Shown piece by piece: positions 41-32,942 of a stretch of DNA of 34,188 bases (positions within the stretch are counted from its first letter, which is position 1; each line of letters starts with the position of its first letter). The notes beneath the pieces are model-generated. The model made no database searches and had not been told where the DNA came from. It was given only the letters and a program-made list of their open reading frames with translations. Position numbers and translations under genes: made by a program. The stretch comes from an uncultured Deferribacteraceae bacterium (GTDB taxonomy: Bacteria > Chrysiogenota > Deferribacteres > CAMZNJ01), in assembly GCA_947313855.1 (NCBI GenBank), contig CAMZNS010000019.1, positions 1 to 34,188 on the forward strand. Reading direction: 5' to 3'.

Positions 41-331
41 CTCGATGTTCGACGCACGACGCGCGATGCACGATGCACGATGCAACATGCCCGATGCTCG
101 ATGCATTATGCAGGACGCCCGATGCACGATGCACAATGCTCGGCGCGCGGGGCTCGGTGCCCGATGCGCCATGCCCGCGGCACGATGCTCGATGCACGAT
201 GCACGATGCACGATGCACGATGCACGATGCTCGACGCACGATGCACGATGCACGATGCACGATGCACGATGCACGATGCACGATGCTCGACGCACGACGC
301 TCGATGCACGATGCACGATGCACGATGCACC
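41..331. repeat. Heptameric minisatellite (unit acgatgc)
   Basis: Tandem array with a 7-bp period. The right half (about 190-330) is nearly perfect acgatgc units with occasional tcgatgc, tcgacgc and acgacgc variants; the left half is strongly diverged (for example gcccgatg, ggcgcgcg), as if older units decay toward the left edge. Because 7 is not a multiple of three and the unit has no stop codon in any frame, all six frames stay open and give spurious Met-His-Asp-Ala-Arg-Cys-type repeats. No real coding sequence is supported here. The array ends about 85 bp before the promoter at 416. Confidence 0.95.
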
Positions 332-415
332 CCCCGACCATCCTTTTTCTGGAGCCCATATCCCGCTCAACCACCCCTTTGTGCAAAATGTTTACCATGT
401 TTTGAAAAAAGGATG

Positions 416-447
416 TTGACAAATATCTGTCGAAAATATAATATAAT
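416..447 (+). promoter_or_regulatory. Sigma70-type promoter for the zapB-like/zapA/6S block
   Basis: A consensus -35 TTGACA lies at 416-421. Two overlapping TATAAT -10 candidates follow at 437-442 (15-bp spacer) and 442-447 (20-bp spacer), with TAATAT at the ideal 17-bp spacing between them. Any of these puts the transcript start close to the ATG at 451, so the first gene would have almost no leader. Confidence 0.7.
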
Positions 448-450
448 GAT

Positions 451-651
451 ATGGATATTGTTGAGAGAGTACGGATTATTGAGTCTCAAATTGAGGCACT
501 CATGGGGTCCAATACCGCACTGAAAAGCGAGATTGTACGCCGCGACGAACGAATACAGCACCTATCCTCACAGATGGACCTGTATCGTGCTCAACACCAT
601 GAAGTATTGCAAAAACTAAATCATCTCCTGGAAAAAGTAAACTTTAGTTAG
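451..651 (+). CDS. ZapB-like short coiled-coil protein
   Basis: A 66-residue acidic protein with heptad-like hydrophobic spacing along nearly its whole length, from Val-Arg-Ile-Ile-Glu near residue 7 to Leu-Leu-Glu-Lys near residue 60, as expected for a short parallel coiled coil. It lies 10 bp upstream of zapA, where many proteobacteria encode a ZapB-like partner, so a role in Z-ring organisation in the cytoplasm is inferred from position and coiled-coil character rather than from a diagnostic motif. No Shine-Dalgarno sequence precedes the ATG at 451, and the predicted transcription start is within a few bases of it, so translation may be leaderless. An internal start such as the ATG at 502 would remove about a quarter of the protein. 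Confidence 0.6.
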   Translation: MDIVERVRIIESQIEALMGSNTALKSEIVRRDERIQHLSSQMDLYRAQHHEVLQKLNHLLEKVNFS

Positions 652-661
652 GTGGTAAGCT

Positions 662-925
662 ATGCCTCTTCATGATGAATCTATCTACGGCGATATCTAT
701 AAATTGAACTATGACGACCAAGATAGAGACTTAACTTACAAGGTTGTACAGCTTTTGGAGAGCCGACTCGCACATTACGAAAGTGTAGCCACGGACAAGA
801 GCTCCAAAAGAATCGCTGTTATGGCAGCGTTTAGTATTGCCATGGAGCTAAAGCTTCAGGAAGAAAGACTCGAAAACGTTGAACGACTTGTTGAAGAGAT
901 AGAAGGTATGTTTCTTGCAGATTGA
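662..925 (+). CDS. zapA: Cell division protein ZapA
   Basis: An 87-residue protein matching the ZapA family layout: an N-terminal Ile-Tyr-Gly-Asp-Ile-Tyr-Lys-Leu strand (residues 8-15), then a helix carrying the family hallmark Arg-Ile-Ala-Val-Met-Ala-Ala-Phe-Ser-Ile-Ala (about residues 50-60), then a C-terminal coiled coil rich in Glu and Leu. ZapA binds FtsZ in the cytoplasm and cross-links protofilaments of the Z ring. A GGTGG-type ribosome binding site lies just upstream of the ATG. It shares a promoter with the upstream coiled-coil gene and is followed after 11 bp by the 6S RNA candidate, an arrangement common in proteobacteria. Length is slightly short of the usual 90-110 residues. Confidence 0.85.
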   Translation: MPLHDESIYGDIYKLNYDDQDRDLTYKVVQLLESRLAHYESVATDKSSKRIAVMAAFSIAMELKLQEERLENVERLVEEIEGMFLAD

Positions 926-936
926 TGCAAGGGTTT

Positions 937-1120
937 ATAGTACCTTCATAGGGTTGAGCTATTGTATTTAAAACCAACGCTACACCATTGGGGAACGGCA
1001 GTTCTAGTGGCGGTGTGAACACTTCTCTTAATTTATTAAGGTTGGATCCTAAAACCACTGACAGTTTCCCACCTGATTTTTCAGGTTTTAAATTGTAACC
1101 CGATCTTATGAAGGTACTAT
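937..1120 (+). ncRNA. ssrS: 6S RNA (ssrS)
   Basis: A 184-nt element closed by a perfect 14-bp inverted repeat: ATAGTACCTTCATA (937-950) pairs with TATGAAGGTACTAT (1107-1120), with further GGGTT/AACCC pairing inside it. Internal elements include the segment ggggaac (974-999 region) facing gtttccc (1065-1075 region), the hairpin cttaa-ttta-ttaag near 1025-1042 and the hairpin acctga-tttt-tcaggt near 1072-1087. Length, one long irregular rod closed by terminal helices, and position directly after zapA and before the 5-formyltetrahydrofolate cyclo-ligase gene all match 6S RNA, which mimics an open promoter and sequesters housekeeping RNA polymerase. The assignment rests on structure and synteny; the primary sequence is divergent. 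Confidence 0.75.
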
Positions 1121-3791: not shown

Positions 3792-3941
3792 GCACCGTAC
3801 GGTCACACGGTCGTACGGTGCCACGGTCACACGGTCACACGGTCACACGGTGCCACGGTCACACGGTCGTACGGTGCCACGGTCACACGGTCGTACGGTC
3901 ACACGGTCCACGGTCACACGGTCGTACGGTCACACGGTCGC
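3792..3941. repeat. Octameric minisatellite (cacacggt / cgtacggt / gccacggt)
   Basis: About 18 tandem 8-bp units ending in acggt, built from three variants: cacacggt, cgtacggt and gccacggt. The variants recur in partly ordered groups (cacacggt, cgtacggt, gccacggt), a higher-order pattern suggesting expansion by duplication of multi-unit blocks. One 7-bp unit (ccacggt) breaks the phase. It fills most of the rny to M15-like gene interval. The period is not divisible by three, so open frames through it are artefacts. Confidence 0.95.
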
Positions 3942-3970
3942 ACACGCAGTAGAGGGGGGGGGAACGCATC

Positions 3971-4837
3971 ATGATGCACACACATGGTCGTAACAGAAAA
4001 CGCTCCAACAGTACATCGGGCACAATGGGTACAGTATCGCTCAGACCCGAATACCGCCTGCTGTTATCGGTGCCGAGACTTGTGCCGAGACTTGTGCCGA
4101 GACTCGCCCTGCTGTGGCTACTGTTCGCCATGGCACCACTCTCCACCGCCACCGCACAAAACCTCGGTAGGGTGGAGCTGGCTGGTGGTGGCTCCCAAAA
4201 ACCTCAGACCTCCAAACCCGTAAAACCACTGCAAATTGCACAATCATCGTACAAAGGTGACACGGCAATGCTTGATTGGTATAAAAATGTTATCGGTGCC
4301 CCCGGTGTTGTTGTGGAAAACATCACTGTTGACAGCAACATGACCTACGCACGTGCCATCAAAGGCTTGCCGTTTAGTCGCGAATACACCTATGCAAACA
4401 TCTCTCTGCTCAACGTAATCTACATCTCATTCGATGGTCATGTTCATCAGGGTCAGATACTCGTGCACCGCTCCATCGCACCAGAGGTCTACTACTTCTT
4501 CATGGAGTCGTATAAGTTTAACTTCCCCATCGGCAAGGTTGTCCCCTTGTCGGTTTACGGTTGGGATATTTCGAAGGCGGCTGATGCTGGCGTGACTTTC
4601 GGTATTACGCTTAGGGGTGACAATAGTGATCGTAATGGTTACAGTATGCATATCAATCCGCGTCAGAATCGTGGTGGTCTGATTCCACGCGGTGGTGTGT
4701 CTCATGATGGTATTGCTTTGGGTGCCATATCGTCTGGTTCGGAGCCGTTTATGCTTGGTATGAAGCAGCTTGGTTGGCGTTGGGGTGGCGACGGTGGTGA
4801 AAAGTCATACGGTCGCATGTGGAAGCCTGTTTCGTGA
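3971..4837 (+). CDS. Secreted M15-family peptidase homologue lacking zinc ligands
   Basis: A 288-residue protein with a long basic N-region, a hydrophobic core and a plausible signal-peptidase site after Ser-Thr-Ala-Thr-Ala (about residue 62), so it is probably periplasmic or surface-exposed. The C-terminal half follows the M15C D-Ala-D-Ala carboxypeptidase pattern: Ile-Leu-Val-His-Arg-Ser-Ile-Ala (163-170), Phe-Pro-Ile (185-187), His-Ile-Asn-Pro (227-230) and Leu-Gly-Trp-Arg-Trp-Gly-Gly-Asp (267-274). However, the residues that normally bind zinc are changed: the Ser-x-His motif reads Ser-Asp-Arg, the Asp before Ile-Asn-Pro is His227, and the final His-Phe motif reads Arg282-Met. It is therefore likely a non-catalytic peptidoglycan-binding derivative. 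The start is supported by a GAGGGGGG run 8-15 bp upstream; the ATG at 3974 is an equal alternative. Confidence 0.8.
   Translation: MMHTHGRNRKRSNSTSGTMGTVSLRPEYRLLLSVPRLVPRLVPRLALLWLLFAMAPLSTATAQNLGRVELAGGGSQKPQTSKPVKPLQIAQSSYKGDTAMLDWYKNVIGAPGVVVENITVDSNMTYARAIKGLPFSREYTYANISLLNVIYISFDGHVHQGQILVHRSIAPEVYYFFMESYKFNFPIGKVVPLSVYGWDISKAADAGVTFGITLRGDNSDRNGYSMHINPRQNRGGLIPRGGVSHDGIALGAISSGSEPFMLGMKQLGWRWGGDGGEKSYGRMWKPVS
4070..4105 (+). repeat. 12-bp in-frame repeat within the signal peptide
   Basis: Three tandem copies of gtgccgagactt encode Val-Pro-Arg-Leu three times at residues 34-45 of the M15-like protein, just before the hydrophobic core. The unit is a multiple of three, so copy-number change would lengthen the signal peptide N-region without a frameshift. 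Confidence 0.9.
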
Positions 4838-5079: not shown

Positions 5080-5112
5080 GAGCCACTAATGAGCCACTAA
5101 TGAGCCACTAGC
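5080..5112. repeat. 11-bp direct repeat, three copies
   Basis: Gagccactaat occurs three times in tandem (last copy gagccactagc) between tRNA-Ser and the 15-bp array. A shorter duplication, acgtggt, lies just upstream at 5061-5074. No function is evident. Confidence 0.85.
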
Positions 5113-7119: not shown

Positions 7120-7415
7120 GGGTGGAGCGTTTGGGTGGAACGTTTGGGTGGAGCGTTTGTCCACCCTCAACACGACCCCACACGATTATGCTGCGATGCA
7201 CGAAAATAGCGATGAAACAGGATGTTTCCGGAACGTTTCCGGAATGTTTCTAGGACGTTTGTAGGGGGTCGCTTTATCCGGTGGCTTCCCGTGCGTCTGT
7301 CATTTCTCCGAAATGCCTAAGGCCGCACTTGCAAGTCCACCCTCAACGCGACCCCACACGATTATGCTGCGATGCACGAAAATAGCGATGAAACAGGATG
7401 TTTCCCGAACGTTTC
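7120..7415. repeat. Repeat-rich intergenic region: 13-bp array and an 81-bp direct repeat
   Basis: Three tandem 13-bp units (gggtggagcgttt) occupy 7120-7158. They are followed by an 81-bp sequence at 7159-7239 that recurs almost unchanged at 7335-7415 (176 bp apart, about four differences). Inside and after the first copy, ttccggaacg-like segments repeat (7224-7260). No reading frame in this 310-bp gap is convincing. The second copy stops 4 bp short of the stop codon of the minus-strand 60-aa gene. Confidence 0.9.
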
Positions 7416-10318: not shown

Positions 10319-10363
10319 ATTTTTTCAAAAATGATTTTCTCAAAAATGATTTTCTCAAAAATG
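10319..10363. repeat. 16-bp AT-rich direct repeat in the divergent promoter region
   Basis: Three near-identical 16-bp units (tctcaaaaatgatttt) lie between the symporter gene and the marR-like gene. A second pair, tttcaacac, sits 15 bp apart just to the left (10291-10316). Regular spacing close to 1.5 helical turns inside a divergent promoter suggests iterated regulator sites, but this is unproven. Apart from these repeats and the promoter at 10366, I see nothing else in the 362-bp gap. Confidence 0.8.
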
Positions 10364-11193: not shown

Positions 11194-11208
11194 CGTTGCC
11201 TGAGTTCG

Positions 11209-11561
11209 GCAACGCCAGCAACGCCAGCAACGCCAGCAACGCCAGCAACGCCAGCAACGTCATCAACGCCAGCAGCATCATCAACGCCAGCAGCATCATC
11301 AACGTCGGCAGCATCATCAACGCCAGCAACGTCGGCAACGCCAGCAACGCCAGCAACGCCAGCAACGCCAGCAACGCCAGCAACGTCATCAACGCCAGCA
11401 GCATCATCAACGCCAGCAACGCCATCAACGTCGGCAGCATCATCAACGCCAGCAGCATCATCAACGCCAGCAGCATCATCAACGCCAGCAACGCCATCAA
11501 CGCCAGCAACGTCATCAACGCCAGCAACGCCATCAACGCCAGCAACGCCATCAACGTCGGC
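11209..11561. repeat. 9-bp minisatellite between convergent genes
   Basis: About 39 tandem nonamers drawn from four variants: aacgccagc, aacgtcatc, aacgtcggc and agcatcatc. Multi-unit blocks recur (for example agcatcatc-aacgccagc), implying block duplication. It fills nearly the whole gap between the ends of the convergent marR-type and gspN genes. The period is a multiple of three, so frames read through as Asn-Ala-Ser or Leu-Leu-Ala repeats, but no start signals support a gene. Confidence 0.96.
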
Positions 11562-12428: not shown

Positions 12429-12459
12429 TGGTGCCTCTTTGGAAGTATGTGGTGATTTG

Positions 12460-13116: not shown

Positions 13117-13146
13117 GCTTTACCTTTTGTTATTTCTGTGTGCCGT

Positions 13147-15133: not shown

Positions 15134-15149
15134 ACTTTATTAACCAATC

Positions 15150-15764: not shown

Positions 15765-15780
15765 TCCTTTTCAAGGCGGG

Positions 15781-16987: not shown

Positions 16988-16989
16988 AT

Positions 16990-17031: not shown

Positions 17032-17069
17032 CGTAAAGTAATTCAGTTTGGGGAAATCACTTTAGGATG

Positions 17070-17555: not shown

Positions 17556-17614
17556 AGCGTATGCTCCTTCTGTTGCGTTCAGCTTCGCAATTTTGGTTTA
17601 GTCATTCGATAGAC

Positions 17615-17644
17615 ATACTACCACACTTTTGCCATGTATGGCAA
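17615..17644 (-). promoter_or_regulatory. Predicted promoter of the gspG arm
   Basis: On the minus strand TTGCCA (17644-17639) and TAGTAT (17620-17615) have an 18-bp spacer, about 60 bp before the gspG start. The -35 overlaps the inverted repeat gccatgtatggc (17631-17642), a possible operator. A perfect palindrome ACCGTACGGT (17749-17758) lies further up in the same divergent region. Confidence 0.45.
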
Positions 17645-17817
17645 TTAATTTAATGTGGTCATATTTTTAGTCTGTGTTGTTGGTATTTTTGTGTTGTTGT
17701 GGTTGTAAGTTTTTGTTTATTGTTTGTTCCCTATCTAGTATATTGGATACCGTACGGTGCTGTTTGGTTTGATTTTTCTTAAAAATGTGTTAGTATGCTT
17801 CCTTAGTATGGTCTAGT

Positions 17818-18327: not shown

Positions 18328-18378
18328 TACACGTGTTTATGCTGAAGGTATATTTGAAACAATAAGGGTGTATTTATT

Positions 18379-19323: not shown

Positions 19324-19498
19324 GATAATCGCACCACGAACTACACGCAACGAAAAACACTGCTGGTTAACGCAAGCCTCAGAGATACCTAGACGAACAG
19401 CAACACTACAACATGTTGACGATAAGTTAGTTTAAAATATTAAAAAGCTAAGATTTAAAGAAACACAGGACTATTGGTTTATAAAAAAAGGGTTTATT

Positions 19499-21607
19499 AT
19501 GATGTTTAATTTTTCCAATACGACGACTACGAGCAGTAACTTCACCACACATAATCGGCTGAAAGTGGGACTAATGGCACTGCTGTTGGCATTGTTACTG
19601 TCACCGCTACTGTCATGGTCTGGACTGGCACTTGCCGAAGAGGGGGACAATCCCGACAACACAAACATGTCCACCCCCCCCAAGGTGGTTTTCGATGGGC
19701 TGTATGCGGTTAATCTGGAAAATATTACCCTGCAAGAGTTTACCCTTTTTGTGCAGGATGTTACCGACGTAAACTATGTCTACAACCCTGCCGACCTAAC
19801 TGCCACCGTAACAATCAAATCACGTGGACGCATGTCTCGCGAAGATATTATCGAAATATACCAAAGTACTCTGGCCGCAAATGGGCTCGCAACAATCAAT
19901 CGTGGCAACTACGTACTCATTAGCAAAACCTCCAAACTAAAAGAGATAGATGACCCCGTCGTCAACTCTCGAATGGTGGCCGCCAACAGGGAAGACCTTA
20001 GCTACCTCACCACAGCCGTTATTCAGGTCAACAACTACTCATCAAGTCAGCTCGCTAGCTACCTTCGCAATTTTAGATCGAACTTCGGATTCATCACATC
20101 CATCGACGCCACCAACTCCCTCTTAATACGCGAAGATCAGTCAACGCTGAACAAAATGATGGATATTATTCGCCAAATCGACTCGGTATCAAAAAGATAC
20201 AAACTTCGATCCATAGACGTCGAAAAAACATCTGCAACCAAACTCGCAAACACACTGCGTAGCTTCTTCAACGAACTCAACAAGAAGGGGCTACAGGGTG
20301 GTGTGCCCCTATTCTTAGCGAGCGACGAAACAAACACACTCATAGTTGCCGGTACAAATGCCGATTTCGATCGCATAGACTACTTCATGGAACAGATAAA
20401 CACCACCATCGAAGGGGGCTCAGCAGGGTTTACATCCCGCGTCTTCAAACTACAAAACTCCAAAGCATCCGAAATGCACAAAATTGTAAACACCATTGTT
20501 GGGGCTCAAAAGGCGAAACCGGGTGAAGTTCCAAACAAAGTATCGTTCGACTCCACAACAAACTCCATCATCGCCGTCGGCTCATCAGAATTCTACTCCC
20601 GAATAGAAGACGTTATCAGCAAACTTGATATCCCACGCAAACAGATCTACATGGAGATGCTCATACTAGAAACTAGTATCACAAAGAGCTCACAAATCGG
20701 TGTGGAATGGACAAGCTTCGCCGCCGATCCAGCTGGCAATACCCTTGGATTTTTAGGGAACATCAACCAACAGGGCTCACTGTTAGGCTTGCAAAACGCC
20801 ATTGTCAACGGTGCGGCACCGGCATCCATCCCTGCAGGGTTGTCGCTGGGAGTGCTGGGGAACACAATCAGCTTTAACGGAATATCATTCCCGTCCATTA
20901 GTGCCATGCTCACGGCGGTGAGTGGCGATTCCGGCTTCGAAATAATATCCAAACCACAAATACTCACCCTCGACAACGAACCTGCCGAAGTGTTTGTTGG
21001 GGAGAATAGACCGTTTTCCACAGGCACAACAGTGGACACCAACGGCGTAGCTCAACCAAGTATCGATTACCGAAATGTTGGGGTATCCCTGAAAGTAACG
21101 CCGCATATCTCGGGGGATGACTCCATAATACTAGCGTTGGAGCAAACCGTTGACGAAGTGTCCAGTAGCTCAGCCTCCCTCACTACCCCCGTAACACTCA
21201 CTCGACGCACAAAAACTACAGTCAAATTGCAAGACGACTCCATCATGCTAATTAGTGGACTGATGCAGAATCGTAACTCCACATCCAACGCCGGTATCCC
21301 ATTCATGCGGAGCATACCCGTTGTAGGCAAACTATTCGGTGCTGAACGTCGTGATAGCTCTAAGCTCAACATGATGGTGTTCCTGTCGGCAAGAATCGTC
21401 AACAACCCTGACGACATGATTGACATTGTTGACAACAAAACAAGTGCCTCCCTAGACTTCACCGACTACGTTTACAAGAAAGTTTACGGCATGGATCGAG
21501 CTAAATCTGTGGAGCGAGGCGGACTTGATGGGGTAGGGAATATGCCCTTCAATCTGCAAGAGATACGCGAATCCTACAGCTTGCCCGACATTGTAGGCGA
21601 AAGCTAG
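19499..21607 (+). CDS. gspD: Type II secretion system secretin GspD
   Basis: A 702-residue outer-membrane secretin. Signal peptide ends near residue 46 (Leu-Ala-Leu-Ala). The N0 domain starts at Phe-Asp-Gly-Leu-Tyr-Ala-Val-Asn-Leu-Glu-Asn-Ile-Thr-Leu-Gln-Glu. N1-N3 repeats follow, with family motifs Ser-Ser-Gln-Leu-Ala-Ser-Tyr-Leu-Arg and Phe-Leu-Ala-Ser-Asp-Glu-Thr-Asn-Thr-Leu-Ile-Val-Ala-Gly. The secretin core contains Glu-Met-Leu-Ile-Leu-Glu-Thr, Ile-Ile-Ser-Lys-Pro-Gln-Ile-Leu-Thr-Leu-Asp-Asn-Glu-Pro-Ala, Val-Gly-Val-Ser-Leu-Lys-Val-Thr-Pro-His and Ser-Gly-Leu-Met-Gln-Asn. No lipobox is seen, so insertion may need a pilotin or be spontaneous. ATG at 19502 is an alternative start. Confidence 0.97.
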   Translation: MMFNFSNTTTTSSNFTTHNRLKVGLMALLLALLLSPLLSWSGLALAEEGDNPDNTNMSTPPKVVFDGLYAVNLENITLQEFTLFVQDVTDVNYVYNPADLTATVTIKSRGRMSREDIIEIYQSTLAANGLATINRGNYVLISKTSKLKEIDDPVVNSRMVAANREDLSYLTTAVIQVNNYSSSQLASYLRNFRSNFGFITSIDATNSLLIREDQSTLNKMMDIIRQIDSVSKRYKLRSIDVEKTSATKLANTLRSFFNELNKKGLQGGVPLFLASDETNTLIVAGTNADFDRIDYFMEQINTTIEGGSAGFTSRVFKLQNSKASEMHKIVNTIVGAQKAKPGEVPNKVSFDSTTNSIIAVGSSEFYSRIEDVISKLDIPRKQIYMEMLILETSITKSSQIGVEWTSFAADPAGNTLGFLGNINQQGSLLGLQNAIVNGAAPASIPAGLSLGVLGNTISFNGISFPSISAMLTAVSGDSGFEIISKPQILTLDNEPAEVFVGENRPFSTGTTVDTNGVAQPSIDYRNVGVSLKVTPHISGDDSIILALEQTVDEVSSSSASLTTPVTLTRRTKTTVKLQDDSIMLISGLMQNRNSTSNAGIPFMRSIPVVGKLFGAERRDSSKLNMMVFLSARIVNNPDDMIDIVDNKTSASLDFTDYVYKKVYGMDRAKSVERGGLDGVGNMPFNLQEIRESYSLPDIVGES

Positions 21608-21706
21608 ACGACGCAATAATCACAAACCATAGCTTACAGATTAGGCTAGGATGCATAACGCTGATAACTCAAAATACGCTACTAAATACCAAAGGGCTCA
21701 AAAACC

Positions 21707-23179
21707 ATGTCATTGATTTCGAAAGTCTACGACTACTACAGGCAGATACCTGACAAAAGCGACTTTATCCCCACCTCCGACGGCGACAATATTACCATGC
21801 TTTACTGTGGGGAAGAGGGGTACGAAAAAGCTTACTACATGGTGATGAACCTCAGTAGCAGTATGGACTTGGATACTAGCAAAATAAACTACAAACTGGT
21901 TGAAAAAGAGGACATTCTCACGCGACTCGAAGAGATGGAGGGTGCCGTTGAAGATATTGAAGAATCCGACGAAGATCTTGCTAGCTCCGACTCCAACGAT
22001 ATCCTACTTGCATCCTACGATGAAGCACCCATTATTCGACTAATCAACCAAATTATTATCAACGCTGTCAAAAATGGTGCCAGTGACGTGCACATTGAAG
22101 GCACAGAGGTGTCGACCATTGTGCGTATCCGTATCGATGGCAAACTGCAAGTACTTAAAACATACCCACGAAGTGTGCACGACTCCATGTTGGCACGTAT
22201 CAAGGTTATCGCATCCTTGGATGTTGCCGAAAGCCGTCGCTCGCAGGATGGACGCATTAACCTCAAAGTTGGGAACCGTACCATCGATATTCGCGTATCT
22301 ATTGTGCCGTCAGTGGATGGCGAGAAGGCTGTGTTGCGTATCTTGGAGCGTTCATCGGGGCTTGTCTCTTTGGAAAATGTTGGCATGCAGGAAAATATTC
22401 TAGAACAATACCGACCCTACCTGCGTCGTACTAATGGTATCATCTTGGTAACCGGCCCTACTGGTAGCGGTAAATCCACCACCCTGTACGCGTCTTTGCT
22501 AGATATGGACAGGGATGACAAAAATATACTGACCATCGAAGACCCAGTGGAGTACCACATTAACGGCGTTACACAGGTTCAGGTAAACAATGCCGTGGAT
22601 CTCACGTTTGCAACGGCTTTACGAGCATTCTTACGTCAAGATCCTGACATTATCCTTGTGGGGGAGATACGAGACGAAGAAACGGCGGAGGCTGCTGTTC
22701 AGGCATCCCTAACGGGGCACTTGGTGCTGTCAACACTGCACACCAATAGTGCAACAGCCACCATCAGCCGACTCCTTGAGATGAATATCGAGCCGTTCCT
22801 CATATCCACAACACTGTCGCTAATCGTTGCACAACGACTAGTGCGGCGGGTGTGCGAAAACTGCAAGGTGGAAATACCTGTGGACGACGCAATGCGTAGT
22901 GCCCTGAAAGACACCAACATTAACTTCAATACCTGCTACAAAGGCACAGGTTGCAACGAATGCTTGCACATCGGGTATAAAGGGCGTGTTGCTTTATTCG
23001 AAATACTTGAGATAACCGACGCTTTGCGAAACCTCATCACACAAAAAGCTCCCTCCCACGAAATACGAGCTACTGCAGTGGCAGGGGGGTTCAAATCCAT
23101 GTTGGACAACGGTCTCGACCTCGTGCAAATAGGACTCACAACCATGGACGAAGTAATCGCAAACACTGTCCTAGACTAG
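21707..23179 (+). CDS. gspE: Type II secretion system ATPase GspE
   Basis: A 490-residue cytoplasmic secretion ATPase. The N-terminal domain is short and contains an acidic stretch (about residues 76-96). The N2E domain includes Ala-Ser-Asp-Val-His-Ile-Glu (125-131). Walker A Gly-Pro-Thr-Gly-Ser-Gly-Lys-Ser is at 250-257, the Asp box Ile-Glu-Asp-Pro-Val-Glu-Tyr at 277-283, Walker B Asp-Ile-Ile-Leu-Val-Gly-Glu-Ile-Arg-Asp at 314-323, and the His box Gly-His-Leu-Val-Leu-Ser-Thr-Leu-His-Thr at 337-346. The zinc tetracysteine motif of GspE is present (Cys383, Cys386, Cys416, Cys419). All catalytic motifs look intact. It energises pseudopilus assembly through GspL and GspF. Confidence 0.97.
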   Translation: MSLISKVYDYYRQIPDKSDFIPTSDGDNITMLYCGEEGYEKAYYMVMNLSSSMDLDTSKINYKLVEKEDILTRLEEMEGAVEDIEESDEDLASSDSNDILLASYDEAPIIRLINQIIINAVKNGASDVHIEGTEVSTIVRIRIDGKLQVLKTYPRSVHDSMLARIKVIASLDVAESRRSQDGRINLKVGNRTIDIRVSIVPSVDGEKAVLRILERSSGLVSLENVGMQENILEQYRPYLRRTNGIILVTGPTGSGKSTTLYASLLDMDRDDKNILTIEDPVEYHINGVTQVQVNNAVDLTFATALRAFLRQDPDIILVGEIRDEETAEAAVQASLTGHLVLSTLHTNSATATISRLLEMNIEPFLISTTLSLIVAQRLVRRVCENCKVEIPVDDAMRSALKDTNINFNTCYKGTGCNECLHIGYKGRVALFEILEITDALRNLITQKAPSHEIRATAVAGGFKSMLDNGLDLVQIGLTTMDEVIANTVLD

Positions 23180-23214
23180 GTACGCCAAACTAATTTTGCA
23201 GGTGCAACACAACT

Positions 23215-24480
23215 ATGGCAACTTACAAATACGAAGGTATTGACAAAAAAGGCAAAACAGTACGCGGCACTGTGGATAGTGCCTCAGAAGCCCTAGCCGC
23301 ACGCGAACTCCTTGGAAAAGGTGTGTTTGTGGATACCATTCACGAAGTGAAGGCGGGGAAACGCTCACGTACTGCAAACAAAGGCAAAGGGCGGGGTGAA
23401 GGCAAAAAGTTCTCATGGAAAGACCTTCGCGAAATGGAGATAACATTCGGTGCCAAATCCACAAAACATGTTGGCGAAATATTCTTCCAACTCTCACTGC
23501 TACTACGGAGCGGACTACCACTCGTCAACTCCATGAAAATCGTCTCCAGCAATACCAAATCCAAATACTACGCCGACATACTGATGGATATGGCGGAACA
23601 AGTGTCGGAAGGGATACGCTTTTCCGAAGCAGTGAAATCCCACGGCGACGCATTCCCAACAATGTACACCTCCCTGATTCAGTCCTCCGAAAAAATGGGG
23701 AACATTGATGTTGTCTTGCACGACATATCCATTTACGAAGAACAAAAACGTGAAAACTTGGACAAAGTTACATCCGCCATGGTTTACCCCGTGGTCGTGC
23801 TCATGGTGGGTATTGGGGTGCTGTGGGGGATGATCGCCTTTGTTGTGCCAAACATGACATCGGTGTTCGAAAACTTTAACGCCGAGCTACCAACCTACAC
23901 CAAACTAATGCTAGGTTTCTCATCGTTTATGCAGAAATATTCCCTTGTCATGATTATTCTGATTGTTGCAGGCTTCTTCGTGTTCAGACACTACTACGGC
24001 AACGTTGACGGCTCATTCCGCCAAAAACTAAACAAACGCATGTACGACATCAAATTTTTGCGTAACGTCTACATCAGTCGCTACACCTACATTTTGTCGT
24101 TTCAGCTGAAGGAGGGGATACCCCTCACCGACGCCATGGTACACGCCAACGCCAACCAATCCAATATCTACTTCAGAAACGAGCTTGAGGTTGTTCGCGA
24201 CCTAGTTGTTTCCGGTACAAAATTTTCGGAAGCGTTACGTAGTCGCAATATCTTCCCTGAGTTGCTGGTTGCCGCTTCAGCCACAGGTGAGCAATCGGGC
24301 AACATGAGCGGTCTGCTGGAGCGTGTAAGCACATACTATGGGAAACAGGTTCAAAAGCTTCTGGGGATTTTTGTGTCCATGGCCGAACCTCTGTTCCTAG
24401 TGTTTGTTGGTGGTATTATCGGGTTTATGGTAATATCCATCATGCTACCACTACTCAACATCAACTCCGTTATCGAATAA
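23215..24480 (+). CDS. gspF: Type II secretion system inner-membrane protein GspF
   Basis: A 421-residue polytopic platform protein. The N-terminus Ala-Thr-Tyr-Lys-Tyr-Glu-Gly-Ile-Asp-Lys-Lys-Gly-Lys is the usual GspF/PilC start. Two related cytoplasmic domains follow: the first with Phe-Phe-Gln-Leu-Ser-Leu-Leu-Leu-Arg-Ser-Gly-Leu-Pro-Leu (about 87-100), the second with Tyr-Ile-Leu-Ser-Phe-Gln-Leu-Lys-Glu-Gly-Ile-Pro-Leu. Three transmembrane segments lie near 195-220, 240-260 and 385-410. The second cytoplasmic domain carries the usual Gly-Glu-Gln-Ser-Gly-Asn-Met motif. It is the last gene of the rightward arm, 35 bp after gspE. Confidence 0.97.
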   Translation: MATYKYEGIDKKGKTVRGTVDSASEALAARELLGKGVFVDTIHEVKAGKRSRTANKGKGRGEGKKFSWKDLREMEITFGAKSTKHVGEIFFQLSLLLRSGLPLVNSMKIVSSNTKSKYYADILMDMAEQVSEGIRFSEAVKSHGDAFPTMYTSLIQSSEKMGNIDVVLHDISIYEEQKRENLDKVTSAMVYPVVVLMVGIGVLWGMIAFVVPNMTSVFENFNAELPTYTKLMLGFSSFMQKYSLVMIILIVAGFFVFRHYYGNVDGSFRQKLNKRMYDIKFLRNVYISRYTYILSFQLKEGIPLTDAMVHANANQSNIYFRNELEVVRDLVVSGTKFSEALRSRNIFPELLVAASATGEQSGNMSGLLERVSTYYGKQVQKLLGIFVSMAEPLFLVFVGGIIGFMVISIMLPLLNINSVIE

Positions 24481-25948: not shown

Positions 25949-28315
25949 ATGAGTATGGATAGACAGTTTACACACGGTAATATTCGCGACGACAATAGTT
26001 TCGGGGGTGATGAGCTGGGGTACTCGCACCCCCCTGACGAAGGGGAAATGGGCGTGAACCTTGTGGGGAGTGCTTTGTGGCATAATACCCTGCTGGTTGC
26101 ATCTGGTGTGGGTATTGCGTCCATGTCTAATATCCGTACCACTGGTGCGTTTGGCGATGCTGGTGCGTCTGGCGATGCTGTTGCGTCTGGTGATGCTGGT
26201 GCGTCTGGCGATGCTGTTGCGTCTGGTGATGCTGGTGCGTTTGGCGATGCTGTTGCGTCTGGTGATGCTGGTGCGTCTGGCGATGCTGGTGCGTCTGGCG
26301 ATGCTGGTGCGTCTGGTGATGCTGGTGCGTTTGGCGATGCTGTTGCGTCTGGCGATGCTGGTGCGTCTGGCGATGCTGTTGCGTCGGTAGACAACACCTC
26401 GACACAGGCAATACAATCCCCTTGGCTGAACTCGAAATCTGATGGCTACACTACCGACCACACTACTCACACCGCCACCGAACCAAGTAACGCAACGGAC
26501 GTCAGTGGTGTACTGCGGATTAAGAACCACCTTGCAGATGTGTTACGCCTCGACGAGCACCTCGACAACCGCGACAACCGCGACGGCGACGCCTCAGTAA
26601 CCACGAACCCTGCCAACACCCTCACCATTATTCTGTTTGACAGCTTTGCGTCGCAGTATTCGCCACAAGCCTTGTCGCTCATAGCCGACACCGAAATGAA
26701 CAACACCCTAACACAGGAGTGCGGGTTTGCGTTGCGTCTCATGGACAGGGATGAGCACCCTTACACCGCCCCCATGCTTAGCCTCTTCCTACAGACACTT
26801 GGCTTGCATGGGTCTGTTTACAGGCATATCCCTGTATTTATTTTTTATTCGTCGAAAGATGGCTTGTTTTATGCACTGCCATTCTGTGACCACCTAGGGG
26901 AACACAGGGTTGTGCCTGAAACCCTTATTCAGCGTGCCAAATGGGTGTTGTCGGAGTACCAAGCTGGCGGTGACAAGTTTGTGCGTGTTGCAGAGTTGTT
27001 TTTTGCCGTTTATCGCAAGGCGTCCAAGGTGGAGGGTAGCTCTAGCAGACCGGTGGGGGACTTGCTCAGCATGGTGCGTAACAGTATGGTGGAGTCGATT
27101 GGTGGCTCTCTTGGTGGTTCGGCTAGTGGTTCGGCTAGTGGTTCGGCTAGTGTGGGGGCGTTGTTTCGTGGTCTAGCAATGTACGATACTGATGCCAACA
27201 CCAAGCTCGCACTAGACACCCTTGCCGTGGGGATGGCAACCACGACCATGAGGGATATTTTCCGTGGCGGATTCTTCTCAAACGCAACGTCCATACCGAT
27301 TACACTGGAGACGGAGTCGGCTGAAACTAATACACACGTACCGCAGTATTTTGCTCCAACCCTAGAAAAATCGTTGGAAAATAATGCGTGGATGGTCAGC
27401 TTCTACTCACGCCTGTACATTAAGTCTGACAACCCTTTTTTCTTGTATATTGCAAAACATACTGCCGACTTTATTATCGACACACTGCTCACCGACAGGG
27501 GTGTTGCGAACGGTATCGTCCCTGATCCCGATCTATACTTGCCAAATAAAAAGTGGCTCAAGGATTTATCAGCAGGTGAGATCGAGTCCTTAGGCAACGT
27601 GATTCAGATGGGTACTGGCTTGCCACATCTAAAGTCTGGCTCTGATTATAACGATATCCGATCTGTGGACAGTCTTTTAGATAAGGTTGCACAAAACCTT
27701 CTACCCTTTGGCGTTGATAGTCGCATTGTGGCACAACATAACTTCATCTTTGTGGTTGCATTGCTGGACCTATTCGAGGCATCGGGGGATGAGTACTACT
27801 TCACCATCGCCCTTTCGGTAATGGGTAAGTGTGAGGGTATTTTTGTGTCTGGCGGTGTTGCGAGTATGCTGGGCTACGCATACGCTGGTGCTGGTGGTGC
27901 TGGCGATGCTGGCGATGCTGGCGATGCTGAGTTACCCTTAGGTCTTGCTATTCACGGTGTGCAAACCCTTGGCGGTGTGGCATCGTATGTGATGGCATGT
28001 ATGAAGATGTTTGAGGTTACGGGTGAGAGGCGATTCCTAGATACTGGTCGCAATGCGTTTGCCATGGCGGAGCGTCGTCATTTTCATAATGGTAGTCTTT
28101 ACCTAGATGGGGGTAGTAGTGGGGGGCTGTGCTTTACTGGTGATTTTTCCGGTGGGTCGGTTCCTCAGGTTGCCATATTTATTTACACACTACTACGTTA
28201 CGCTCATCTGTTTGATGTATCTGCACAGATGTATGATTTTGCGTTGCAGTACACCCTTGCTTACGGTTATGAGTCTCCGTTTATGTACTACGGTTTGTCC
28301 GATGATGATTACTGA
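25949..28315 (+). CDS. Degenerate YyaL-like protein (thioredoxin-like plus alpha/alpha-barrel) with repeat insert
   Basis: A 788-residue protein. Residues 1-66 are unrecognised; 67-144 are 13 hexapeptide repeats (Ala-Ser-Gly-Asp-Ala-Gly/Val). About 190-350 resembles the thioredoxin-like domain of the YyaL/DUF255 family, with Met-Asp-Arg-Asp-Glu where the family has its Val-Asp-Arg-Glu-Glu, but the Cys-His-Trp-Cys-His motif is missing (the region reads Ser-Phe-Ala-Ser-Gln-Tyr-Ser-Pro). From about 420 it follows the six-hairpin domain: Asp-Ile-Phe-Arg-Gly-Gly-Phe-Phe, then Tyr-Phe-Ala-Pro-Thr-Leu-Glu-Lys-Ser-Leu-Glu-Asn-Asn-Ala, parallel to the family Val-Pro-His-Phe-Glu-Lys-Met-Leu-Tyr-Asp-Asn-Ala. 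Further Ser-Gly-Ser-Ala and Gly-Asp-Ala repeats interrupt it. Function unknown. It lies 37 bp after the malic enzyme gene and has no good ribosome binding site. Confidence 0.7.
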   Translation: MSMDRQFTHGNIRDDNSFGGDELGYSHPPDEGEMGVNLVGSALWHNTLLVASGVGIASMSNIRTTGAFGDAGASGDAVASGDAGASGDAVASGDAGAFGDAVASGDAGASGDAGASGDAGASGDAGAFGDAVASGDAGASGDAVASVDNTSTQAIQSPWLNSKSDGYTTDHTTHTATEPSNATDVSGVLRIKNHLADVLRLDEHLDNRDNRDGDASVTTNPANTLTIILFDSFASQYSPQALSLIADTEMNNTLTQECGFALRLMDRDEHPYTAPMLSLFLQTLGLHGSVYRHIPVFIFYSSKDGLFYALPFCDHLGEHRVVPETLIQRAKWVLSEYQAGGDKFVRVAELFFAVYRKASKVEGSSSRPVGDLLSMVRNSMVESIGGSLGGSASGSASGSASVGALFRGLAMYDTDANTKLALDTLAVGMATTTMRDIFRGGFFSNATSIPITLETESAETNTHVPQYFAPTLEKSLENNAWMVSFYSRLYIKSDNPFFLYIAKHTADFIIDTLLTDRGVANGIVPDPDLYLPNKKWLKDLSAGEIESLGNVIQMGTGLPHLKSGSDYNDIRSVDSLLDKVAQNLLPFGVDSRIVAQHNFIFVVALLDLFEASGDEYYFTIALSVMGKCEGIFVSGGVASMLGYAYAGAGGAGDAGDAGDAELPLGLAIHGVQTLGGVASYVMACMKMFEVTGERRFLDTGRNAFAMAERRHFHNGSLYLDGGSSGGLCFTGDFSGGSVPQVAIFIYTLLRYAHLFDVSAQMYDFALQYTLAYGYESPFMYYGLSDDDY
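26147..26380 (+). repeat. 18-bp coding minisatellite (Ala-Ser-Gly-Asp-Ala-Gly/Val)
   Basis: Thirteen tandem 18-bp units of the form gcgtctggcgatgctggt, with ggt/gtt alternation at the last codon and tct/ttt at the second. The period keeps the reading frame. The alternate order of Gly- and Val-ending units forms a 36-bp higher-order repeat. Confidence 0.95.
27108..27153 (+). repeat. 12-bp coding repeat (Gly-Ser-Ala-Ser)
   Basis: Three copies of ggttcggctagt, preceded by related ggtggctctctt/ggtggttcg sequence, lie inside the linker between the two YyaL-like domains and encode Gly-Ser-Ala-Ser repeats. Confidence 0.9.
27882..27928 (+). repeat. 9-bp coding repeat (Gly-Asp-Ala)
   Basis: Ggtgctggtggtgctggc followed by three gatgctggc-type units encodes Gly-Ala-Gly-Gly-Ala-Gly-Asp-Ala-Gly-Asp-Ala-Gly-Asp-Ala in a loop of the six-hairpin domain of the same gene. 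It uses the same gatgctgg core as the 18-bp array at 26147. Confidence 0.9.
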
Positions 28316-29340: not shown

Positions 29341-30312
29341 TTAGTAGAGGAGGTAAGACACCCCCACTGCAACAACAATGCCACTGCCAATAATTATTTT
29401 TGTTATGTAAAAACGTCTGCAATCTTCATTTTCGTAGGGGGAGATGGTAATATCAAGTTTTGCGTCGGTGTTGTTGACAGCACCGGAATCAGTCTTCCCG
29501 TAGCAAGTGGCACGGCGGTATGCACCGTATCCCGCAGCCATGGCGATAAAGCGGACAACCACAGCAATAACAAACATGGATGAAATAAAAATTATTCCGA
29601 ACTGAGCATTTTGCACACCGTATGACACAATAAGCACAACCAAAACAACGGGGTTTGCAAGGAGTGCCAATCCGATCATAACCATCTTGATACCGGAGTT
29701 GCCACTCATGCGGAACTCATCCTTGAGGGGTGCAGAGTTGCTATTTGCAAGGGTACTCTTTAACTTAAAGTAGCCCTCAAGGAGCAAAATAACACCCGTA
29801 AACCCTAAAATAATGTGGGATATGAATTTTGTGGAGGCGAGTAGGTCGAGTGAGTAGAGGGGGTTGTAGGGGGTGGTGATGAGGAGGGTGAGCCCGAAAA
29901 TAATCCCTGCACCGGCAAACTGAAGGGCTGTTACTAGCATAACAACTTGGAGGTGGGTTATGAAAATACTGCCCTTGCGACGCTCAGGAATACTGTAAGA
30001 CGCACGCAACGAAGCCCTATCCTCCTCAGTGGTATGCTTGACCCTAGGGGAACGTCGCCCCATCTTGCTGGAGCGTTTTACGGAGAAAATATCGTTACCA
30101 CGGGCAAAACTATAACCGAATAGCACCTGTGTTGTAGTATCCCATAGTAGGGTTGCAACGCTCAGGCTTAGTAGGAGTTGTAGTATGGTGGCGGTGCTCG
30201 GTATGGAGTCGAAGGCTGTTGCGGCGAACATGAGGGGTGCGAAGTGGCTGTATGTCCAGTGGTAGTTGCCGATAAGCTCGGACGCAAACTCTGCAATGCT
30301 CATAGGTTTCAC
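29341..30312 (-). CDS. Multi-pass inner-membrane protein, unknown function
   Basis: Up to 323 residues from GTG at 30312, which has AGGA 4 bp upstream; ATG at 30303 is the alternative. About six hydrophobic segments are visible: near residues 42-60, 122-145, 160-178, 210-232, 238-262 and 300-322. A polar, basic segment of about 50 residues (Lys-Arg-Ser-Ser-Lys-Met-Gly-Arg-Arg-Ser...) lies between the first two and should be cytoplasmic. No transport or enzyme motif is recognised. It is the first gene of the leftward trio with the 171-aa protein and the cold-shock/zinc-ribbon membrane protein, which suggests a shared membrane-associated task. A 12-bp repeat array occupies its upstream region. 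Confidence 0.7.
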   Translation of the reverse strand: MKPMSIAEFASELIGNYHWTYSHFAPLMFAATAFDSIPSTATILQLLLSLSVATLLWDTTTQVLFGYSFARGNDIFSVKRSSKMGRRSPRVKHTTEEDRASLRASYSIPERRKGSIFITHLQVVMLVTALQFAGAGIIFGLTLLITTPYNPLYSLDLLASTKFISHIILGFTGVILLLEGYFKLKSTLANSNSAPLKDEFRMSGNSGIKMVMIGLALLANPVVLVVLIVSYGVQNAQFGIIFISSMFVIAVVVRFIAMAAGYGAYRRATCYGKTDSGAVNNTDAKLDITISPYENEDCRRFYITKIIIGSGIVVAVGVSYLLY

Positions 30313-30331: not shown

Positions 30332-30446
30332 GTGCGTTCCAGCGTGCGTTCCAGCGTGCGTTCCAGCGTTCGTTCCAGCGTTCGTGCCAGCGTGTGTTCC
30401 AGCGTTCGTTCCAGCGTGTGTTCCAGCGTGTGTTCCAGCGTGCGTT
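30332..30446. repeat. 12-bp minisatellite (gtgcgttccagc)
   Basis: Nine full 12-bp units with variants gtgcgttccagc, gttcgttccagc, gttcgtgccagc and gtgtgttccagc, plus a partial unit. It lies about 20 bp upstream of the leftward membrane-protein start, where its promoter would be expected, so copy-number change could alter that gene's expression. The rest of the gap up to uppP holds only a 19-bp direct repeat (tgctgtggcagtgtttttt, about 30600-30640). Confidence 0.95.
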
Positions 30447-30658
30447 TTACGCACATATTTACGCCATAAATACATTTTAGCAAATATGCAACTATTCTGC
30501 CAAAGTTTTTTTACCATATTGCGACTACTATTGCAAAAGATTGCTAGCGGGTGTTGTATTTGCATTTGCTTAATAGGTTGTAAGGGTGTATGATTTGTTT
30601 TGCTGTGGCAGTGTTTTTTTGCTGTGGCAGTGTTTTTTGCTATGATTAGGGGGACGCC

Positions 30659-31465
30659 ATGTTGTTGGAGTATGTAAAAGTTGCCATACTGGGGTTGGTT
30701 CAGGGTGTTACGGAGTTTTTGCCCATTAGTAGTAGTGGTCATCTGGTGATATTCAGCCATCTGTTGGGAGTTAGTAGCGATATTGGTGTTACGTTGGTTA
30801 TCCTGCTTCATACCGGTACGTTGATGAGCGTTTTGGTTTACTACCATCGACGTATATTTGTGTTATTTTTGTCATTTGTTGGCATGTTTGTGCCACGATT
30901 TCGCTCTGTTTACCATCAGAATAAGGTAATGATGTGGGGTATAATCATTGCGAACATACCGACAGGTATTGTTGGTTTGCTTATGGCGACCTACTTGGAG
31001 GCGTTGTTTTTGTCTTTGACATTGGTGGGTTTCATGCTTCTTGTGACATCTTTTCTTTTGTTTGTGTCTGATATGAAAGTGTCCACGGGTGATTTGACTC
31101 TTCGTAAGTCGTTCATTCTTGGTATTGTTCAGGGTTTGTCGATTATTCCGGGAGTGTCTCGTAGTGGTAGTACGATTGTTGCGTCCATATTGATGAATAT
31201 TAGTCGTGAGAAGGCTGTTGAGTTCTCGTTTTTGTTGTCTGCTCCTGCCATTGTTGCAGCAGCGACACTTCGTTTGTTGGAGTTCGATCCACAGGCCAAC
31301 CTTCTTCCTATCGGTGTGTATGTTCTTGGTGGTTTTGTTGCTTTTGCTAGCGGTATTGTATCCATTCATTTTGTTATTGGTTTGGTGAAGCGTGCTCAGT
31401 TAAAAGTATTTGCTTTATACTGTTTGGTGGTGGGTGTTTCGGCGATTTTGGTGTCATTATTTTAG
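30659..31465 (+). CDS. uppP: Undecaprenyl-diphosphatase UppP (BacA)
   Basis: A 268-residue integral membrane phosphatase that converts undecaprenyl diphosphate to the monophosphate carrier for peptidoglycan and O-antigen synthesis. Both family motifs are intact: Gly-Val-Thr-Glu19-Phe-Leu-Pro-Ile-Ser-Ser-Ser-Gly-His28 in the first membrane segment, and Pro-Gly-Val-Ser-Arg-Ser-Gly at 164-170. About 7-8 hydrophobic segments match the family topology and length. GGGGGA precedes the ATG by 5 bp. Directly upstream is a duplicated 19-bp sequence, and TTGCTG-N16-TATGAT could be a promoter, though it would leave a very short leader. Third codon positions are strongly T/G, opposite to rny. Confidence 0.97.
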   Translation: MLLEYVKVAILGLVQGVTEFLPISSSGHLVIFSHLLGVSSDIGVTLVILLHTGTLMSVLVYYHRRIFVLFLSFVGMFVPRFRSVYHQNKVMMWGIIIANIPTGIVGLLMATYLEALFLSLTLVGFMLLVTSFLLFVSDMKVSTGDLTLRKSFILGIVQGLSIIPGVSRSGSTIVASILMNISREKAVEFSFLLSAPAIVAAATLRLLEFDPQANLLPIGVYVLGGFVAFASGIVSIHFVIGLVKRAQLKVFALYCLVVGVSAILVSLF

Positions 31466-31484
31466 GTAATTTGCAAATTATTCC

Positions 31485-31514
31485 TTGACAAAGGGTATGG
31501 TTTGGTTGTATTGT
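31485..31514 (+). promoter_or_regulatory. Promoter of tRNA-Gly
   Basis: TTGACA at 31485-31490 and TATTGT at 31509-31514, with an 18-bp spacer, end 12 bp before the tRNA. Confidence 0.6.
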
Positions 31515-31526
31515 AGTGTTTCAAGC

Positions 31527-31599
31527 GCGGGCGTAGCTCAGCTGGTAGAGCGCAACCTTGCCAAGGTTGAGGTCGCGGGATCGAGTCCCGTCGCCCGCT
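31527..31599 (+). tRNA. tRNA-Gly (anticodon GCC)
   Basis: A 73-nt tRNA. Acceptor GCGGGCG pairs with CGCCCGC with discriminator T. D-arm GCTC..GAGC, anticodon stem CAACC/GGTTG with loop TTGCCAA (GCC at 31560-31562), T-arm GCGGG-ATCGAGT-CCCGT. CCA is not encoded. Confidence 0.96.
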
Positions 31600-31635
31600 T
31601 GTTTTTCTTCCCATTAAAATTTATTTGTAGTTGCT

Positions 31636-31719
31636 TGCGTCCAGCTGAGCGTAGCACTGTTGTAGATTGGTAGAGCGTCACCTTGCCAAGGTTGAGGTCG
31701 CGGGATCGAGTCGCCCCTT
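31636..31719 (+). pseudogene. Decayed tRNA-Gly-derived repeat, copy 1
   Basis: The stretch from ggtagagcg through the anticodon loop ttgccaa to gcgggatcgagt matches tRNA-Gly, but the 5' acceptor strand is replaced, the D-arm is 8 nt longer and unpaired, the anticodon stem is broken (tcacc against ggttg), and the 3' strand of the T-stem has been deleted between short direct repeats. The tRNA 3' flank (tgtttttcttcccatt, then aaaatttatttgtag) is copied along with it. Confidence 0.85.
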
Positions 31720-31820
31720 GTTTTTCTTCCCATTAAAATTTATTTGTAGTTTCGGCAGGATAGTGTTGCGGTATGCTGTTGTTCGGCAGGCTGTGCATTG
31801 CGTTGAGTTGAATAGTTGTT

Positions 31821-31905
31821 TGCGTCCAGCTGAGCGTAGCACTGTTGTAGATTGGTAGAGCGTCACCTTGCCAAGGTTGAGGTCGCGGGATCGAGTCGCC
31901 CGCTT
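31821..31905 (+). pseudogene. Decayed tRNA-Gly-derived repeat, copy 2
   Basis: Nearly identical to the copy at 31636, sharing all its lesions, so it arose by duplication of an already broken copy. It retains cgcccgctt at the 3' end, where copy 1 has lost bases. The same flank follows, and a third partial start, gcgtccagct, runs to 31951, touching the kinase stop codon. The 100 bp between the copies show nothing else except ttcggcagg duplicated. Confidence 0.85.
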
Positions 31906-31949
31906 GTTTTTCTTCCCATTAAAATTTATTTGTAGTTGCTTGCGTCCAG

Positions 31950-32942
31950 CTAACACAAACCTAAGAGGTGCTCTAGCTGCCTGATGAGAGACACGAAGTG
32001 ACTCTCACCGAAGACAACAGTATTGACATGGCGATTATGATTGCTAGTGCTATGTGTGCTATGTGTGCTATGTGTGCTGTGCGTGCTGTGTGTGCTATGC
32101 GTGCTGAGGAGGTCGGGGCGATTGATGTACCATCCGATACTCGCCATGGTGGAGAGTATCGCCGCAACAGTCATATCTTTCTGCGAATAGGTAATAGTAT
32201 GTGCACTTATTGAGTTGTACGCAGAAACAGTTCGACGAAGAAACTGAGGGCTCCACAGGGCTTGGAGGGTTTGTAGCTCAAACAAAATATGACCGTAGCT
32301 GGCGTACTCAAAATCGATGAGCATGGCTTTATTATTATGGAACAGAATATTGTCCTTACTGAGGTCGCAGTGGCACAGAATACTGTCTAGACCGCTGAGC
32401 GACTGTGAGTGCTGTTGCTGTTGCATCCACGCCTCAACAACACGCTGACCCTTAACTATGAGTGGGGCTAGTGACTGACCTAGGTGCGGTGTGTTTTGGG
32501 GCTTGAAGTAGCTGTTTACGCGGTGAACAAGGCTGTACGTTTCTGGTTGAATATTTTTGTGTGCAAGTTGCGACAGGATGGGCTCGGAAAGGGTGTGCAG
32601 GCAGTGCATGGCTTCGGCAACAGCCTGTGCTTGATCTTCATCGGTGAGGTTGCTTTGCGAGGGGATGTGCTCGAGTAGCATGTGTGTGTTGGGATCAACG
32701 CCGATGATGCCTGGTGCATAACCTTGGCGAGCAAGCTCTTGGTGGATGAGTATTTCGAAGTTGCGATCGATTCCGCAGATGTTGCCATGGTGAAATTGGC
32801 GTAAAATGGCTGTGGTGCCACCATAGTCCACCATGGTGAGCGTATTGCTGACACCTTTATCTATGTTGGCGATATGGGTAGTATTTTGACGTAGCCAGTC
32901 AAGATTATTGGGGTTCGAGGGGTTGCTGTTCTTGCAGGTCAT
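31950..32942 (-). CDS. APH/choline-kinase-family small-molecule kinase (thiamine kinase-like)
   Basis: A 330-residue cytoplasmic kinase. N-lobe: Val-Ser-Asn-Thr-Leu-Thr-Met-Val and Thr-Ala-Ile-Leu-Arg-Gln-Phe (31-51). Catalytic loop Cys-His191-Cys-Asp193-Leu-Ser-Lys-Asp-Asn198 and metal-binding Ile-Asp210-Phe-Glu-Tyr-Ala are intact and match the ThiK/choline/aminoglycoside kinase superfamily. A His-Ser-Thr tripeptide array (residues 280-299) lies in the C-lobe and is encoded by a 9-bp minisatellite. Its start overlaps the upstream PnuC-family gene by 38 bp with a GGAG site, implying coupled translation. Together with that transporter, phosphorylation of an imported vitamin such as thiamine (or nicotinamide riboside) is the likely role. 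The stop codon coincides with the edge of a tRNA-derived repeat. Confidence 0.8.
   Translation of the reverse strand: MTCKNSNPSNPNNLDWLRQNTTHIANIDKGVSNTLTMVDYGGTTAILRQFHHGNICGIDRNFEILIHQELARQGYAPGIIGVDPNTHMLLEHIPSQSNLTDEDQAQAVAEAMHCLHTLSEPILSQLAHKNIQPETYSLVHRVNSYFKPQNTPHLGQSLAPLIVKGQRVVEAWMQQQQHSQSLSGLDSILCHCDLSKDNILFHNNKAMLIDFEYASYGHILFELQTLQALWSPQFLRRTVSAYNSISAHTITYSQKDMTVAAILSTMASIGWYINRPDLLSTHSTHSTHSTHSTHSTHSTSNHNRHVNTVVFGESHFVSLIRQLEHLLGLC
32048..32107 (-). repeat. 9-bp coding repeat (Ser-Thr-His) in the kinase gene
   Basis: About six tandem nonamers (plus strand tgtgctatg, tgtgctgtg, cgtgctgtg variants) encode Ser-Thr-His repeats near the kinase C-terminus. The period preserves the frame. 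The placement suggests a surface loop. Confidence 0.93.

Follow-up and report, generated by a model that had tools for sequence, protein, structure and literature searches.

The window analysed here, the whole contig C19 (34,188 bp) of the genome G000 of an uncultured Deferribacteraceae bacterium, is crowded with minisatellites, i.e., tandem arrays whose units are almost all unrelated to each other. This minisatellite-rich state is genome-wide and genus-wide; a preliminary description of the window had made a real observation and understated its extent. The reading preferred here, to which a probability of about 0.6 is given, is that arrays are born and turned over unusually often, by slippage at persistent hot spots, and filtered by reading frame in the reduced genome of a shrimp-gut symbiont, perhaps eased by the loss of exonucleases.

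G000 (1,343,155 bp, 49 contigs, 90.72% complete) is very probably the assembly of "Candidatus Rimicarispirillum atlantis", a member of the "Candidatus Microvillispirillaceae" (Deferribacterota) that lives between the midgut microvilli of vent shrimp and for which a genome of 1.34 Mb, 49 contigs, 90.7% completeness, 0.0% contamination and a coding density of 84.5% has been published (PMC12887300). The metagenome-assembled genomes (MAGs) from shrimp guts in the original study share an average nucleotide identity of 87.0–97.6% and possibly represent two species (PMC9636832). Here, the one other genome of the same genus, G001, serves as the sister species and differs from G000 by 0.103 mismatches per site in aligned DNA. 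Both MAGs are incomplete (91 and 86%, respectively), and arrays were analysed in 953 kb of G000 and 711 kb of G001. The comparison set comprised 20 classmates (Deferribacteres) with 367 kb in total, G003, G023 and G024 being represented by one 20-kb sample each. In those parts of the literature on these MAGs that a term search reached, the word "repeat" hardly occurs or is missing, and no report of the arrays was found.

Tandem Repeats Finder (TRF) returned 523 arrays in G000 and 378 in G001, a density of 5.3–5.5 per 10 kb (5.49 in G000). Every one of the 84 10-kb bins of G000 is occupied, the variance between bins being about equal to the mean. The preliminary description had staked its reading on arrays recurring outside the window, and since the rest of the genome carries an equal load, it came through its own test. 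The classmates average 1.12 arrays per 10 kb, and G003 (L074), G023 (L086) and G024 (L091) show an intermediate density of 3.5–4.5 per 10 kb plus exact duplications. Exact tandem duplications with a period of at least 12 bp occur at 4.33 (G000) and 3.70 (G001) vs. 0.19 per 10 kb in the classmates, about a 20-fold difference, and 49 kb of Escherichia coli contained none. Across both genomes the mean array period is 20–22 bp and the mean match between copies is about 90%.

With the TRF scoring matched to a published table (2,7,7; score 50), the two genomes gave 843 and 858 rows per Mb, and repeats made up 7.8–7.9% of the sequence when summed and 4.3–4.5% when counted non-redundantly. The table lists 201 rows for Ehrlichia ruminantium in 1.52 Mb, 93 for Wolbachia wMel in 1.27 Mb and 89 for E. 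coli in 4.65 Mb (PMC3287509 Table 4). E. ruminantium, for which a 2012 paper claimed the highest tandem-repeat content reported for bacteria, thus has 133 rows per Mb at a repeat content of 6.3%, and on the same scoring the genomes described here carry about six times as many rows per Mb.

The units are highly diverse: 511 of the 523 in G000 and 368 of the 378 in G001 are distinct. A dispersed mobile repeat family (REP/MITE-like) was rejected on these counts, as the preliminary description had already argued. Genes were called with a simple codon-usage caller, which misses real genes. Within called genes, the period is divisible by three in 195/214 arrays of G000 and 159/166 of G001 (91–96%; P about 1e-66 to 1e-70 against 1/3). 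The corresponding share between genes is 41–47%, a class that includes some coding arrays because of the missed genes. Tabulating period against coding status over the 953 kb of G000 and 711 kb of G001, as had been proposed, bears out the suggested selection on reading frame. The accompanying rule that all genic units are multiples of three holds in the window at a score of at least 50; below this, a weak 13-bp row lies in a gene (12622–12647, 1.9 copies, score 45), and genome-wide the rule is strong, not absolute.

Arrays are denser between genes than in genes (12.6 vs. 2.9 per 10 kb); still, about 26% of called genes bear one. The residues in genic arrays are enriched in H, T, A, D, P, N and G and depleted in W, F, Y, L, I and C, a profile resembling that of disordered linkers. 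DnaE, PolA, MutS, MutL and RecA all contain arrays as in-frame inserts, and in G001 the C-terminal extension of RecA is itself an array.

The arrays also have a composition of their own, a feature beyond the preliminary description. Array DNA has a G+C content of 57–59%, other intergenic DNA of 38–42% and other genic DNA of 47–48%. The units display an amino/keto skew, one strand being rich in A+C and its complement in G+T (z 5.6–8.9 against a unit-length, GC-matched control). The words CAACAC and CACACG are enriched, AGGG/CCCT is depleted, and purine-pyrimidine alternation reaches 0.61 vs. 0.51 (z 13–16). The alternating CA/TG/CG steps resemble Z-DNA in composition only, and no formation of Z-DNA is claimed.

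These data bear on an account in which the birth rate is ordinary and selection is relaxed, so that a symbiont confined to its host, with its small effective population, keeps arrays that are purged elsewhere. The reduced genome of this gut symbiont (PMC9636832; PMC12887300) and the far higher density between genes would fit. However, the frame filter reveals effective purifying selection, essential genes carry arrays as in-frame inserts, drift alone does not predict a compositional bias of the units, and Wolbachia, which is likewise host-restricted, has far fewer TRF rows (PMC3287509 Table 4). Relaxed selection is considered an unlikely explanation.

Also beyond the preliminary description, array sites are conserved between the species while their units turn over. 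Both flanks could be placed in the other species for 240 arrays of G000 and 216 of G001. Of these, 21% have their own unit at the orthologous place, 41–42% another array and 38% no array. Any array is present in 54–63% of orthologous intervals vs. 2.6–3.4% (genic) and 11–15% (intergenic) of matched array-free control intervals. Since arrays lie far above control at these sites and their units mostly differ, sites are reused and units are replaced. As the sister species lacks most arrays or has others in their place, the continuous birth of arrays from local sequence proposed earlier is well supported. Among 98 different-unit pairs, 37 (38%) exceed 95% of shuffled pairs in similarity; therefore, an old array is rewritten at some sites, and at others arrays begin anew or have diverged past recognition. 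Copy number differs between the species in 32 of 51 shared arrays. Purity fails to separate shared from species-specific arrays, and for this reason no claim on array age is made.

As the mechanism, we infer slippage. During replication, the nascent strand would slip between short direct repeats of a few to about ten bases, which chance may supply where the local sequence is simple and CA/GT-rich. Such a slip would yield a two-copy duplication, and further slippage would grow, shrink or rewrite the array. Arrays would persist where insertions are tolerated, i.e., between genes or in-frame in disordered linkers and termini, including those of DnaE, PolA, MutS, MutL and RecA, and the position but not the unit would be conserved because permissive sites are used repeatedly. 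More speculatively, 3' exonucleases of the DnaQ/RNase T superfamily would remove displaced 3' strands, so that their absence would raise the rate, and drift in a host-restricted population would add to it.

Nine clean one-copy differences to the sister species were found. In three of these nine, the single-copy relative retains a correctly spaced direct repeat of 6–7 bases (6/6, 6/7 and 7/7), the expected substrate of slipped pairing; this microhomology is judged on the nine clean cases only, as young duplications and pieces of old arrays are pooled in the test of trailing partial copies. Furthermore, the amino/keto skew is partly present already in the single-copy orthologues of arrays (z 1.7–3.9). 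Both features would fit, short of proof, slippage that starts from simple CA/GT stretches.

The preliminary description had suspected missing mutS, recJ, ssb or exonuclease genes. This did not hold for the named genes, as mutS, recJ and ssb, like mutL, are present with open frames. MutS2, RadA, XseA (ExoVII), PolA, SbcD and RecA are present as well, and a slippage mutator through loss of mutS, mutL, recJ, ssb, radA, xseA, sbcD or recA was therefore rejected. A defect of the PolA 5'-nuclease, a FEN1/rad27-like cause, was rejected because the conserved 5'-nuclease motifs are intact. The 3'-5' exonuclease domain of PolA (G000 C39:12297–14966) is degenerate and carries an in-frame GS-rich 24-bp array; proofreading loss is nevertheless not claimed, since the PHP site of DnaE is intact. 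Frames of the repair and recombination enzymes of this genus tend to be long. For SbcD, the open frame has 596 aa in G000 (C34) and 490 aa in G001 (C46), with a spacer of about 300 and 110 bp, respectively, at the same model position.

For exonucleases, the suspicion was partly right, with a family that it had not named. RecJ, XseA and SbcD are retained; PF00929, which covers DnaQ, ExoI, ExoX and RNase T, gave neither a match nor a first-look candidate in a search of G000 and G001, and 2–4 matches in each of the 11/11 classmates searched. Three DnaQ queries, one from E. coli and two from classmates, had no tblastn hit in the 953 kb of G000 and 711 kb of G001. Tandem repeats have been reported to be stabilised by ExoI, ExoX and RecJ (PMC3942315), and their rearrangement is raised in Pol III mutants (PMC4627823). 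Loss of the superfamily is therefore a reasonable candidate contributor, which makes a specific cause open to testing, and the idea that it raises the birth rate of arrays is speculative. A bolder version is distinctly doubtful: here, loss of the whole superfamily would have made the lineage a natural, viable slippage mutator, with births at fixed CA/GT-alternating hot spots, rewriting between the sisters, and disordered in-frame inserts lengthening essential proteins, the replication and repair enzymes among them.

Several points weigh against slippage eased by exonuclease loss. All nine active-site residues (HHDHEHCDH) of active PHP enzymes (PMC12926913) are kept in an alignment of DnaE, and replicative proofreading therefore probably persists. 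RecJ and ExoVII are retained, and both MAGs in which PF00929 is absent are incomplete. With two PF00929 matches, G003 still has nine arrays in its small sample, a moderately high density, and exonuclease loss is therefore not the full explanation. The clean one-copy differences number just nine, the majority without a long kept repeat, and the differences in copy number are those between the assemblies of two species. In addition, RecA-dependent unequal crossing-over with gene conversion between units, aided by GT-rich strands, competes as the process that expands and rewrites arrays. RecA is present, the units are GT/CA-rich with higher-order structure (a 126-bp period at 11206), and some units are modified sister units. 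However, such exchange is not needed for two-copy births from single-copy sequence, and RecA pairing is inefficient for units as short as 6–20 bp. As the driving process it appears rather improbable.

Adaptive hypervariability, in which the arrays would be contingency loci generating surface or regulatory diversity, is very improbable. Some arrays do lie near gene starts or in what look like secreted proteins (4070 and 26142), but the spread over every 10-kb bin largely refutes this account, housekeeping proteins such as DnaE, PolA, MutS, MutL and RecA carry arrays, and 91–96% of genic periods allow no frame switching. An assembly artefact is hardly credible: although the assembly is metagenomic and arrays are about twice as frequent at contig ends as at random places (18/76 vs. 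11.5%), copies carry point differences, arrays recur at the same sites in a separately assembled second species far more often than in the controls, and tandem arrays tend to be collapsed in short-read assemblies, which makes an understated copy number likelier than an invented one.

Among known systems, the workings resemble the turnover by slippage in E. ruminantium, likewise a reduced host-associated genome with an exceptionally high content of unrelated tandem arrays (PMC3287509; PMC10710844). The pattern differs: units are shorter, many arrays are genic, arrays are several-fold more numerous, and sites are conserved with changing units. In E. ruminantium the mean period is 139 bp vs. 20–22 bp here, and expansion and contraction are aimed at noncoding DNA at a coding ratio of about 64%. 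The long-noncoding, low-coding-ratio pattern is not seen here, where 214/523 arrays of G000 are genic, at a mean period of 21.5 bp and a coding density of 84.5%. In E. ruminantium, copy number also varies within an isolate; the variation seen here is that between species, in 32 of 51 shared arrays.

The loci are also similar to variable-number tandem repeats used in multilocus typing (VNTR/MLVA) of Wolbachia and Brucella, with units of 6–70 bp and copy numbers that differ between relatives. Those genomes hold tens of such loci, in contrast to about 500 per Mb here, where units are replaced as well. Phase-variable simple sequence repeats share the slippage-driven change, but here the units are longer, in-frame in genes and spread across housekeeping genes; no on/off switching of the frame is expected, and a switch of reading frame or promoter spacing in surface genes, as in such loci, does not agree with genic periods of which 91–96% are divisible by three or with the housekeeping genes affected. 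Eukaryotic GC-rich minisatellites have strand-asymmetric units of 6–100 bp and recur at hot spots, as do the arrays described here, in a bacterium without meiosis and with different machinery. Birth, growth and replacement of arrays can thus be read from two related species in a natural system, with frame selection as an internal control. The arrays of G000 also affect assembly and gene calling.

In the window, TRF gave 24 rows at a score of at least 40 and 15 non-overlapping arrays at a score of at least 50 (Table 1), which together make up 5.1% of its sequence; DNA simulated from the window with an order-2 Markov model yielded no array at the latter score. All 14 arrays listed in the preliminary description are real. 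Some details had to be corrected: the array given as 10319–10363 has a period of 15 bp, not 16, the 8-bp array spans 3799–3943, and the 9-mer from 11206 has higher-order units. Further weaker arrays lie at 7224, 10593, 12622, 16780, 26559, 27978 and 29286.

Table 1. Tandem arrays of the window found by TRF at a score of at least 50, and the corresponding place in the sister species (ORF, open reading frame).
Array	Position	Strand	Copies and context	Sister species
7 bp, CGATGCA	50–330		40 copies, 81% matches; intergenic, close to contig start	flank aligns on downstream side only
8 bp, ACGGTCAC	3799–3943		18 copies; intergenic	no array in orthologous interval
12 bp, GTGCCGAGACTT	4070–4104	+	2.9 perfect copies; N-terminal region of ORF 3971–4837	different 9-bp array nearby in gene, CAGCACCGT
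11 bp, GAGCCACTAAT	5080–5110		2.8 perfect copies; intergenic	
15 bp, CTCAAGAGTCTTCAA	5197–5297		6.7 perfect copies; intergenic	
13 bp, GGGTGGAGCGTTT	7120–7159		3.1 copies; intergenic	
15 bp, AATGATTTTCTCAAA	10315–10367		3.5 copies; intergenic	shared, 4.5 copies
9 bp, CAACGCCAG, with 18- and 126-bp higher-order units	11206–11561		intergenic	array in place, unit changed
70 bp	16812–16987		2.5 copies, 96% matches; intergenic, inside type II secretion cluster	fragment of one copy only
18 bp in-frame, CTGGTGCGTCTGGCGATG	26142–26385	+	13.6 copies; ORF 25949–28315	33- and 36-bp arrays instead
12 bp in-frame, GTGGTTCGGCTA	27114–27152	+	3.2 perfect copies; ORF 25949–28315	absent; GCTGGCAAGCCC x4 a little downstream
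9 bp in-frame, TGCTGGCGA	27889–27929	+	4.6 copies; ORF 25949–28315	
12 bp, GTGCGTTCCAGC	30332–30446		9.6 copies; between genes 29341–30312 and 30659–31465	
19 bp	30598–30638		2.2 perfect copies; intergenic, score 82, not listed before	
9 bp in-frame, encoding repeated S-T-H	32047–32105	-	6.6 copies; choline-kinase/APH-like gene 31950–32942	

The coding strands are A/C-rich (A 0.30, C 0.265, G 0.214, T 0.222) and not purine-rich, and the GC skew of the window tracks gene orientation for this reason. The type II secretion cluster (11571–24480) holds GspD, GspE, GspK-like and pseudopilin-like genes on both strands. Two neighbouring membrane proteins at 32905–34137 are similar to each other and resemble a tandem gene duplication; one of them matches PF04973 (NMN transporter family).

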